In this document: positions 26,681 to 42,400 of the stretch, piece after piece
How positions within the stretch are numbered: the stretch's first letter is position 1
Layout of the letters: each line of letters opens with the position of its first letter
Origin: Leptodontidium sp. MPI-SDFR-AT-0119
Lineage: Eukaryota; Ascomycota; Leotiomycetes; Helotiales; Leptodontidiaceae
DNA: 64,000 bases
Assembly (NCBI GenBank): GCA_020726505.1
Contig: JAHLEZ010000005.1
Span: 2,604,001-2,668,000 of the forward strand
Reading direction: 5' to 3'
Notes under the pieces: model-generated
Told to the model about the DNA's origin: nothing
Database searches by the model: none
What the model saw: only the letters and a program-made list of their open reading frames with translations
Program-made: the position numbers and the translations under genes

Positions 26681-28530
26681 GTTAGCTATATATTTGTGGT
26701 GTGTGGATGTGAGGTAGGTAGGTATATGGCGTATTGGAACGCAATTGAGAGGACTGGGCTGAATTGGATTCTTCAAGCAGATATGCAAACGGCAGATGGG
26801 CAGAGAGGAGTATACATACATTTTCTTCTAAAGAGGGTCTCTACTCTCGAGTCGTGTATAGATCGGTAGAAGCTGTAGATAAGTGAAGTTGATGCTGTAT
26901 GCAATGCAGGAAATCTTTCCCTTGCAAGACACCAGCTGCTCTTTTATACCTACCTCTCGTCGGCTGTCCGTCAGCATAGATACAGATACCTACCCCTCTG
27001 TAGCAAGTCAACCCCTCATTCGAGAGCCGCATGGCAATGTGCTGGACTGTATTGCTGCTTTGGGATGGATTGGCTGTGTGTCCGACGGGTTTTGTTTGGT
27101 CTGGTAGGGTCCAATCCACTCTTGCTGCTCTGCCGTGATGGAGGGATATGCAATGCAGCCTTCCAAGCTCAGTTCCTTAGTAGTATAGTAAGGCTGTTGA
27201 TACGTGGGGTTGGGTCGGGATTTGTTGGTATGGATGCCAATGGGCTGGACTGGACTGGATGGATAGATATCGCTGGCTTGGGCTGGGCTGACTCGCAGGC
27301 AGTCGGCCGCAAGACAAGACACTGATTCGCAGTACCTTTGATCGGGATTAACACGCCCATGATGTTATTTCCAGTATGTTTTATGTCTCTTAGCCCTTGT
27401 CCAGACTGGACATACGAGTATCTTGCATAGGCTATCGCCTATCTTCAGGGACTTCATCTCGAGGCCAAGGCTTACTTACAGGTATACGACAGCATCTTCT
27501 CCCCATTTCTTACCTGCAGGAGTATATCCAAATCATTGGGTACGTACGCATGGGACCAATCCACGCAGACCAGCTGTAGCCAGGCGTGCAGCGTATTGGA
27601 GGAGAGAGCATGTTCCTGTGTTTGGTTGATGCCGCGATAAGGATGGATGTAAGAGGGAGAAGGAAATTTTGCCTTGATGCGGTTAAAATGTCGATTTGGT
27701 GGAGCAGCCCACTTTGGTGTTTGCTCGGTTTGCACGCGGGGTTCCAGCCCCTGGATGCTTGAGTTCCTCCAATTGGGAGGTGTTGTTGTAAGTACTGTTG
27801 ACTACAAAGGATCTATTTCGGCTTCTCGGTATTTGGCAAGATGGATGTAAACAAGTAAACAAACAAAGAAGGCCGTAGTCGCTTGCAATATTGTAAGTCT
27901 TTCGGTAGAAGTCCCTAATGCCAAATACTTCAGTTGCAGGAGAGGTGTTAGCGCGGGGTACTTGACTTGCCCCACCAAGCTCAAGGAACGGCCATTACCC
28001 TTCGTATACATCTGAACTCCTTGAATTGCGTTTAGAAGTAGGTCGGCAATGGAAATGAAAGTAATAAATTCAATGTAGCTTTAAGATAGCTTCTTTGACT
28101 TCTTTAATCTCTTGCCACTTTGACGTTATGGCCGAGCTGAAAGGGCAAGGGTCTCGGTCGTGGGCAGAACCAAAATAGTCCTATCCACTGGCTTGTAATT
28201 CAGCAGCCTCGAGGCATTGTAAAACAAATACATTATGTCAGATAGGTAGACTCGTATTATTACTGATTTAAATTTTCGGAACTCTGTGAACCATTTTCAA
28301 AGCCTGTTGCTGCTTCTCCTACACTTCCCGTTTAAAGCTCCTTCAAGCTCCACTTCCTCCACCAGTCCAATGAAGTTCAAAATTGGAAGCGAGCCACCTC
28401 GGCAATCTCCACACAAGCCTCTTTCAAAAAAGCCCATCACTGTCTGTTATAACTATTGAAATAAGCAAATCCGAGCACCAATCACGAGTAACTTCATGAC
28501 TTAAAGACCCTCGATTCAATTCGAGATCAA
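26681..28530. other. Long intergenic region, no protein gene seen
   Basis: About 1.85 kb with only short overlapping frames. Several short repeats of a ggctggactggact type occur near 27240. It serves as upstream region of the EutQ-like gene and of the tRNA gene. Confidence 0.5.
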
Positions 28531-28569
28531 CCCTCGGTCGTCTAGTTGGTTTATGGCGTCGGACTGTAA

Positions 28570-28583
28570 TGGTTATCAGTTTC
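28570..28583 (+). other. Canonical 14-nt tRNA intron after position 37
   Basis: TGGTTATCAGTTTC sits between A37 and A38 of the anticodon loop, the standard site for removal by the tRNA splicing endonuclease. Confidence 0.88.
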
Positions 28584-28598
28584 ATCCGAATGTCGCGC

Positions 28599-28656
28599 GT
28601 AAGTGCACCAACAAAATACAAAATTTCTCTCAGACAGCTGCTAACAGTTGTAACAG
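28599..28656 (+). other. Spliceosomal-type intron inside the tRNA T-stem
   Basis: 58 nt with GTAAGT at its 5' end, GCTAAC at 28640-28645 (branch A 28644) and ACAG at its 3' end, the branch point 12 nt before the 3' end. These are the same signals used by protein-gene introns in this window (for example GTAAGT donors at 48419 and 50185, and gctaac at 37689-37694). Exact excision rebuilds a five-pair T-stem; the boundary is ambiguous by one G, but both choices give the same product. Confidence 0.8.
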
Positions 28657-28683
28657 GTTCGACTCGCGCCTGAGGGACATCCA

Positions 28684-28689
28684 TTTTTT
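28684..28689 (+). terminator. Pol III terminator of tRNA-Tyr
   Basis: Run of six T seven bases after the tRNA end, with a second T6 at 28694-28699 as back-up. Confidence 0.85.
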
Positions 28690-39455: not shown

Positions 39456-42400
39456 ATGGGCCGTCCCAATGCCGGTGCTTCCGGATCTTCAGCCTCATCA
39501 GATATCCAGATCCATATTCAGGACGACAGAATCAATGCGCCCCCTAATGATCAGCCGTCTGGATCATCAGATGGACCTGGTGTACCTGGTGGGATTCCTC
39601 TGATCTCGTCGCCTTTATCCCCTCGTTCATCGGCCTCTCAAACCCCCGCTTCTGCACCAAAATGGCCTTCACCAGCACCAGTGACTCGGAGCCGTGGATT
39701 CTCTCTACGGAGAGCTGCATTTGCGATGAATCTGTCACGGTCCGATCAAAATATCCCTGAACCAATCCCTCAGCAGAAGCCTTCAGTTGATGAGGAGATG
39801 CTGGAGGAGAGTGGGGATAAGCGAGGAGGGGAGGCTCAAGATACCATCTTCTCATCTAGCGACCGGGAAAGTTCAAATGATGGGAAGCAACCAACTTCAT
39901 CTCCTGTTGTTCAGAGAAAGGAAACATGGTCGCCCAAGAAACATGTATCCAAACTTGCTTCAACCTTCACTCAAGTCATCAAGATAATCACACGAACCAA
40001 AGATATCCCACCGAGTAAAGATGGACGACATATCGATCTCAACTCATCCTCTCATGAAGATCCAATTGATGAACGGACAGGCAAGCCATTCATCGGCAAC
40101 ACTATCACTTCTAGTCGGTATAATATCTACAACTTCCTGCCTCGCCAACTCATCTTCCAGTTCTCACGAGTTTCGAATTTCTACTTCCTCTGTATCGCCG
40201 TCTTGCAACTTACTGGATTCAGTACCACGGGTACTTACAGTACTCTCGTTCCGCTCATGGCCTTTGTGAGTATTGCAATGGCTAAGGAAGGATTTGACGA
40301 TTGGCGAAGACATGTCCTTGACCGGGTTGAGAATCGCAACACGGTCGAGGTTTTACGTCGAGGTCCGGGCCAAGAAGACGAGTGGCTGGAAGTCAAGTGG
40401 TCAGAAGTGAAGGTTGGAGATATTGTCAAACTCGGTAGAGACGACGCTGTCCCAGCCGATTTGGTTCTCATCTACTCCGACGGTCCAAATGGAATGGCAT
40501 ACATCGACACCGCTTCACTCGATGGAGAGTCCAATCTCAAAGCCAAGCAAGCTTCGCCTATGTTGAGGAAAGTGTGTCGGGATGAGAAGGATCTGTCTCG
40601 CTGCCAAGCTCATATCGTCGTGGAAGACCCGAATATTGATCTGTACAACTTTGATGGCCGGATCACCATTGGGGACGAAACCCTGCCACTGACGGGAAAC
40701 GAGGTGATCTATCGAGGAAGCGTGTTGAGGAATACAATATGCGTGTTTGGAATGGTGATTAATTCTGGGGAGGAGTGTAAGATCAGGATGAATGCTATGA
40801 AGAATCCGAAAGCCAAAGCACCGTCGATGCAGAAGATTGTCAATCAGGTAAGTGCTCGCTTGCAGTTTTACTTTGTCTATGGCTTCTGCAACATCTAGGA
40901 GAAAGACACTGACGCATGATCTAGGTTGTTGTGATTATCGCATCTTTCGTAATGATCCTCACAGGATTAAACAATGCAGCTTACGGGGTTTGGAAATCGA
41001 AGAAAGAAAACAAAGCTACTTACCTGATGGGCGCTTCTGTTGGCCGTGGAGAGCTTTTCGCCAGTTCCTTCGTCATGTTCAGTACTATGATTCCACTTTC
41101 CTTGTACATCAGTTTGGAGATTGTCAAAGTTGGACAGATGTATATCATGGGAGATATCGAAATGTATGATGCGGAGACGGATACGCCAATGGAGCCGCGA
41201 ACGAACACCATCAACGAAGAACTGGGTCAGATTAGTCACGTCTTTTCCGACAAGACGGGCACGCTCACGGAGAATATCATGCGCTTTCGGAAGATGAGCG
41301 TTGCGGGTATGGCATGGCTTCATGATCTTGATCTCAAAAAAGACGATGTTGTTGAGAAAATACAGACCGGGCAGACGAGCGTTCCAACAGCGAAGTCGCG
41401 GGTTTTTGGGCACGCCAAACAAATATCAGATCTAGGCCCTTTGGTCGCATCAGAGACCAGGGATTCTGCCTTCAGAGGCAGGCGTAGTCAGTTGTCTCCA
41501 ACAGCGACCCAGACATCTACCAGCCAGTATGAACTGCCATCCAAACGGGAGTCTACCACAGAGGAGCTCGTAGCATACCTGCAACGAAGATCCGATAGCC
41601 CATTTGTTAAGAAAGCGCGTTTCTTCCTTCTAGCTATCGCTCTTTGTCATACAGCGTTGCCAGAAACTCAAGAGGATGGCGAAATCGATTACCAGGCTAT
41701 GTCACCAGATGAGCTTGCTTTAGTGAGGGCAGCCAGAGATCTGGGCTTCATCGTGGTTGACAGACCCTCTCAGTCCATCACGATCGTCTCAAAAGATGGT
41801 GACAAGCAAACGCGCGAGACCTACGAGGTACTCGATGTTGTTGAGTTTAGCAGTAAGCGGAAACGGATGTCAATCATCATTCGATTCCCAGACGGCAAGA
41901 TCTGTCTGTTTTGCAAAGGGGCTGACTCCACTATCATTCCTCGGCTCAAAGCTACGACGGGAGCGGTTCAAAAAGATGCGGAAATCCGCAAGAGCATGAC
42001 CGCGAAACGACGATCGGAGGCACAAGAAGAACTACGTCGACAAAGCGAAGATCGCCCACGCAACAGCCTCAACCGTCCAAGCATTTCCCGCACCAGGAGC
42101 CAAGTTGGACGTCCTTCTTTCGTCAGTCGGAGGAGCACTGCCGACGGACGGGCCAGTATCGAGTTCTTTGGACGAGTCCTGCATGACTCCCCGCGACCTT
42201 CGATGGTATCAAGAAGATCTTCAAACTTCGGCAATCTCAATATTGATCATTCGGTGGCATCTGACGATGCCGCAACCCTCGTTGCAACTCTCCAGCACAT
42301 CCATGATTTTGCTACCGAGGGATTGCGCACTCTCATGTACGGCCACCGATACCTCGGCGATGAAGAGTACCAAACTTGGAAGAAGCTTTTCCATGAAGCA

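Follow-up and report, generated by a model that had tools for sequence, protein, structure and literature searches.

The tRNA-Tyr(GUA) gene found at positions 28531-28677 of the window (the whole analysed stretch of 64,000 nucleotides, on contig C45 of the fungus Leptodontidium sp. MPI-SDFR-AT-0119) is interrupted twice, by an ordinary 37/38 tRNA intron and by a 58-nt insert in the T-stem. The insert carries the signals of a U2-type intron, and very probably it is removed by the spliceosome from a Pol III pre-tRNA, from which the tRNA endonuclease would then take out the 37/38 intron.

All parts of the gene lie on the forward strand. The first exon (28531-28569, 39 nt) comprises tRNA positions 1-37 with the anticodon GTA at 28566-28568, and is followed by the ordinary intron (28570-28583, 14 nt), the boundary of which is put one base more 3' by ARAGORN. 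The second exon (28584-28598, 15 nt) starts at position 38 and ends with the first four T-stem bases (GCGC), where the mRNA-type GT-AG intron is placed (28599-28656), and the third (28657-28677, 21 nt) supplies the remaining T-arm, the 3' acceptor strand and A73. The earlier claim that exact removal leaves a 75-nt tRNA and a downstream T6 holds: the joined exons (39+15+21 = 75 nt) form a perfect tRNA with the expected T-arm join of GCGC to GTTCGACT, and a T6 run resembling a Pol III terminator is located at 28684-28689. The intron begins with the 5' splice site GTAAGT (28599-28604), has the branch-site motif CTAAC (28641-28645) 11 nt before its end and closes with the 3' splice site ACAG (28653-28656). 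Three equivalent join registers exist at the insert boundary, one of them being GT-AG with the full GTAAGT donor. The element GGTTCGACTCG (28656-28666), which we take to be the B-box according to the generally known consensus, is intact because the final G of the intron replaces the displaced exon G. A cloverleaf, a GUA anticodon, a B box, a terminator and C1-G72 with A73, presumably the identity elements of tRNA-Tyr, are all present, as the sequence anatomy of a functional gene would have them. The same kind of signals (GTAAGTG...CTGAC...CTAG) is found in a 77-nt intron of a protein gene of the window (40848-40924, forward strand), as had been stated from the letters; this gene codes for a phospholipid flippase which, across 500 compared residues, is 100% identical to a Leptodontidium sp. 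2 PMI_412 protein.

In the unspliced window no tRNA is called by ARAGORN, and the Rfam tRNA model matches exactly 28531-28677 with 23.1 bits at a cut-off of 29 bits, its alignment setting 15 bases against 1 of the model in the anticodon loop and 64 against 6 in the T-arm. After deletion of 28599-28656 ARAGORN reports a tRNA-Tyr(gta) with a 14-nt intron in the anticodon loop, in agreement with the letters and with the description of the gene in the sequence-only reading. A splice-and-scan procedure was applied to both strands, with candidates defined by GT[AG]NGY, a branch motif and [ACT]AG. Only one of the 240 candidates of the window gave a tRNA, namely the 58-nt insert, and no tRNA was obtained from the controls (0/571 at non-tRNA loci, 0/1585 in reversed sequence, 0/870 at shuffled tRNA loci). 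At the tRNA loci, including the locus from contig NYXK01000105.1 (L077) described below, 594 candidates gave 20 rows, among which are repeated loci and, for Ser C4 and Met, alternative parses.

The genome, 77 Mb in 69 contigs (labelled C1, C4 and so on), was searched for other tRNA-Tyr genes. Three were found by DNA search (3 matches), and a D-arm/anticodon pattern with five matches in 77 Mb returned the same three genes as its Tyr matches. All three carry an insert at the identical site of the T-stem, with lengths of 58, 64 and 54 nt, and no intact tRNA-Tyr copy, of the kind which would have made the window gene a dead exception, was found among them. The flanks of the three loci match poorly with each other. 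In the C4 copy two pairs of the anticodon stem are changed in a compensated manner (29-41 from G-C to C-G, 31-39 from A-U to G-C), which is what one would expect under selection for a functioning tRNA.

The same insert site is occupied in a second fungus. The exact Tyr D-arm pattern matched one contig only of the prokaryote collection, NYXK01000105.1, and among 22 stretches of viral contigs which match a part of the Tyr D-arm, none is a Tyr gene by reading. NYXK01000105.1 is a 117-kb contig filed under a deltaproteobacterial metagenome-assembled genome, yet fungal sequence lies on it, and this points to contamination in a public genome. Among the best 120 of 184 matches to an amidase-like exon of this contig, those with a name are from Rhynchosporium and Calycina, so the source may be described as another, helotialean-like fungus. 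The exons of its Tyr gene are identical to those described here, its flanks are diverged and a 92-nt intron with the same ends occupies the same site. These flanks align at moderate identity with those of the C35 copy, and therefore the two genes look orthologous.

In this light the reading of the window gene as a dead copy, a tRNA-Tyr inactivated by chance insertion, or as an assembly artefact, has a probability close to negligible. Standard tools indeed do not call the gene, as such a reading would have it, but the insert is present in all three Tyr genes found, at loci with poorly matching flanks, the exons are identical in a second species despite diverged flanks, the stem changes of the C4 copy are compensated and no uninterrupted Tyr gene was seen in the genome searches. 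An assembly error at 28599-28656, which had been named as a possible flaw, is very unlikely with three separate loci and a second species sharing the insert.

Across the Tyr introns, that of NYXK01000105.1 included, conservation covers the initial bases and roughly 30 bases at the 3' end and leaves out the middle. In the window gene this final segment (28627-28656), far better conserved across copies and species than the intron middle, can fold into a hairpin, ACAGCTG-CTAA-CAGTTGT (28634-28651, forward strand), with the branch site in the loop; its conservation comes from the alignment and its pairing is read from the sequence. The intron segment CTCTCAG (28627-28633) can also pair over 7 bases with CTGAGGG of the 3' acceptor strand, and a similar segment is present in the Arg introns described below. 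As a signal this pairing (7 pairs each in Tyr and Arg) was discarded, as perhaps due to chance, at p values of 0.03-0.26 by shuffling; for the Ser, Met and Ile introns p was 0.70-0.95.

Introns of mRNA type are not limited to tRNA-Tyr: 13 were found in 11 tRNA genes of six isotypes, Tyr and five others. Both Ser(GCT) genes seen are interrupted, by three introns in all. The C4 gene has introns at 7/8 (GGCACTT/intron/TGGCGG) and 42/43 (GCCA/intron/TTTCC) and a whole T-arm, and the C12 gene has one in the T-arm (GAGCGA/intron/GTGTTCG) and is whole at both C4 sites, so that every site interrupted in one gene is whole in the other and the exact joins can be seen. One of two elongator Met genes seen is interrupted, C68 at 7/8 (GTCTTCG/intron/TGGCTC), its C23 paralogue being continuous (GTCTTCG-TGGCTC). 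Among four Ile(AAT) genes seen, those of C4 and C68 carry inserts of 55 and 62 nt at 6/7 (GTAAGT...ACAG), behind which the 5' acceptor strand is displaced upstream, and those of C10 and C56 are continuous (GATCGC-TTAGCTC). Two of the five Arg(TCG) genes seen (C1 and C23) have a 59-nt insert at the border of the variable loop and the T-arm (GTAAGT...CTAAC/CTAAT...AAAAG) together with a 37/38 intron; their inserts end in AAG and no strong terminator lies nearby. The Pro(CGG) gene of C67 has two introns, one at 5/6 and the other within the variable loop.

Exact joining of the exons restores a tRNA by ARAGORN, most weakly for Arg C23, which is read after splicing only as an undetermined tRNA, and for the second Pro intron, which is tolerated either way as a 67-nt anticodon-loop insert; the first Pro intron has to be out. 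Ser C4 is called Ser(gct) only with both introns removed. A loosened scan (2070 candidates, 62 loci) returned five real loci and two alternative parses of Ile loci; its parse of L067, an ordinary tRNA-Leu, is likely spurious. Beside these genes a Gly(CCC)-like tRNA gene (L064, C2:157628-157795) was observed whose insert near the anticodon is unusually long, about 95 nt, and begins with GTATGT. With 3/3 Tyr genes, five other kinds of tRNA and uninterrupted Ser, Met and Ile paralogues, the earlier claim of an mRNA-type intron in a tRNA gene is supported, and the best reading is that the gene is a functional one.

The 11 interrupted genes belong to 54 tRNA genes or matches seen, consisting of 46 first-look matches and, partly by way of splice-signal patterns, 3 Tyr, 2 Ser, 2 Met and 1 Pro; the inventory is partial, as first-look scoring covered 63 of 2877 candidates. 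Ser C4, Met and Pro were found through splice-signal patterns (a branch-site/A-box pattern for Met C68), and in these the search itself partly dictates the GT-AG ends, but the second and third Tyr copies, Arg, Ile and Ser C12 were found without them, Ser C12 through a D-arm/anticodon pattern with 2 matches. Viewed with flanks were 45 of 50 and 23 of 31 matches of the splice-signal patterns, 9 of 17 places (some overlapping) of an A-box pattern widened to take in D-loop variants, and 4 of 38 matches of an anticodon-to-T-loop pattern. Further interrupted tRNA genes may be present among the matches not viewed with flanks.

It is also conceivable that an uninterrupted Tyr gene lies outside the assembly or has a divergent D-arm, the inserted genes being a minor and dispensable set. 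The searches were made by pattern and by a first look that scored 63 of 2877 candidates, an assembly of 69 contigs may be incomplete, and Met and Ile do have uninterrupted copies. Nevertheless such a situation is very improbable, considering that the DNA search leads to the same three genes as the D-arm/anticodon pattern, that both Ser(GCT) genes found are interrupted too, and that none of the 38 anticodon-to-T-loop matches is Tyr by reading, four of them (L068, L172-L174) having been viewed with flanks.

The 13 introns are uniform in their signals, which are like those of the flippase intron. All are GT-AG introns of 51-64 nt with the donors GTAAGT (11), GTGAGT (1) and GTGAGC (1), the branch motifs CTAAC (10), CTAAT (2) and TTAAC (1) located 9-13 nt before the end, and the 3' ends CAG (9), TAG (2) and AAG (2). 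By reading they occupy the sites 5/6, 6/7, 7/8, 42/43, variable loop and T-stem, and none is at 37/38. The ordinary 37/38 introns likewise interrupt tRNA genes and are present in the same genes, but the mRNA-type inserts differ from them in position, in having splice-site and branch signals and in a poor fit to the bulge-helix-bulge (BHB) motif. Introns cut by the endonuclease need no GT, branch motif or AG, and the presence of these in 13/13 introns speaks against removal by the tRNA splicing endonuclease or by another non-spliceosomal nuclease-ligase route, which is improbable. A motif of a 4-bp helix with 3-nt bulges fits poorly, with 0-2 of 4 helix pairs in 12/13 introns in the equivalent registers tested, even if one Pro intron (Pro_b) reaches 3 of 4. 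Such a route does have precedents. According to portions of PMC3978253, disrupted tRNA genes of Cyanidioschyzon merolae are processed at BHB motifs, and many ectopic introns of the Guillardia theta nucleomorph are without a defined BHB. These introns resemble the present ones in unusual tRNA positions, sometimes several per gene; as far as the portions of PMC3978253 and PMC4033280 at hand describe them, they are BHB-type or without a defined BHB, in contrast to the GT-AG ends and branch sites here. Removal by the spliceosome thus remains the most likely fate of the inserts, judged by these signals. No TTTT run is present in the 13 introns of the genome, and one is found in the 92-nt intron of NYXK01000105.1; selection against Pol III terminators within introns has the right direction and was set aside as not significant (about 0.14 by shuffling, 11 introns tested).

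An AAATAAG motif, TATA-like, lies at -72 of the window gene (28459-28465, forward strand). Of 53 tRNA rows, 35 have the motif or one of its variants, mostly at -27 to -66 (a raw count with no background control), and 18 lack it, including Tyr C4 and L077; it is a possible TATA-like promoter element of Pol III. In the five genes where the first intron precedes the A-box, the motif is found upstream of exon 1 at -60 (Ser), -42 (Met), -35/-36 (Ile) and -35 (Pro), and in the continuous paralogues at -36 (Ser), -41 (Met) and -37 and -61 (Ile). Since this spacing is like that of uninterrupted paralogues, exon 1 is plausibly transcribed, and transcription, exon 1 included, may be set by the upstream element.

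In the proposed course of events Pol III would make a pre-tRNA with exon 1 and the mRNA-type intron, the spliceosome would cut this intron and the tRNA endonuclease would afterwards remove the 37/38 intron. We infer transcription by Pol III as well as the order of the two splicing steps. The tRNA endonuclease reads the tRNA body; in the Tyr precursor the insert disrupts the T-stem, and therefore the spliceosome would act before the endonuclease.

A second kind of small RNA gene in the same genome is interrupted in this way. A U6-like gene (L076/L131, C13 near 138532-138689) has two mRNA-type introns, GTATGT...CTACAG and GTAAGT...CACAG, and scores 40.8 bits unspliced at an Rfam cut-off of 44; an uninterrupted U6 match (L075, 70.9 bits) lies about 21 kb away. 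U6 adjoins the catalytic centre of the spliceosome, and this position is what is usually cited in favour of its being a target of reverse splicing; tRNAs do not adjoin the centre. The S. pombe U6 snRNA gene carries an mRNA-type intron, and fungal U6 introns of this sort, as presented in part of PMC10484740, are similar in being U2-type introns of a short non-coding RNA made by Pol III, but here six tRNA isotypes are hit, Tyr and Ser-GCT in every copy found. When the 14 tRNA introns (the 13 and that of L077) and the two U6 introns were compared for near-identical copies, as an introner-like element family would spread them over many genes, only relatives from the same gene matched, the one cross-gene likeness being a 12-nt donor-end match between Pro_a and U6_2. 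A common origin as near-identical copies across isotypes was not seen in this set and was dropped; the introns are alike only in their signals. Since the Ser paralogues differ in their introns and continuous paralogues exist for Met and Ile, the simplest history is one of introns gained after gene duplication, and loss from some tRNA copies is possible. One route of gain may be reverse splicing followed by reverse transcription and recombination.

Spliceosomal introns are carried by the rDNA of lichen fungi; these too are of U2 type and interrupt a stable non-coding RNA in ascomycetes, but they lie in many-copy Pol I genes and not in tRNA. Koehrer, Vogel and Domdey (EMBO J 1990) reportedly placed a pre-mRNA intron in a yeast tRNA, from which it was removed by the spliceosome; this transcript is comparable with the present one, but it came from a laboratory construct and not from a natural gene. 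In the open-licence literature no description of a natural spliceosomal intron within a tRNA gene was found, in line with the earlier statement that no described case was known to its author. A title on 'non-spliceosomal splicing of tRNAs' is cited by two articles of this literature. In a study of 129 Helotiales genomes including strain MPI-SDFR-AT-0119, tRNAscan-SE was run with default eukaryotic parameters, and the parts of the article at hand (PMC11678538) do not mention mRNA-type tRNA introns.

Splicing of tRNA and splicing of mRNA are usually treated as separate systems. It seems fairly probable that in helotialean fungi the splicing of Tyr and Ser(GCT) tRNAs obligatorily involves both machines, the spliceosome first, and that tRNA genes are recurrent targets of spliceosomal intron gain, the latter because paralogues differ in their introns and in the sites of these. 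Where one paralogue has an intron at a defined site and another lacks it, spliceosomal intron gain can be studied cleanly, and as the RNA concerned is short and its structure known, reverse splicing and other models of gain become testable. In such fungi essential genes can be missed by standard tRNA annotation. As the Tyr and Ser(GCT) genes found are all interrupted, the cell would probably be unable to translate Tyr or AGU/AGC codons without mRNA-type splicing. If this is true, translation would require spliceosomal processing of Pol III tRNAs, and the activity of splicing would be coupled to the tRNA supply for Tyr and AGU/AGC codons.
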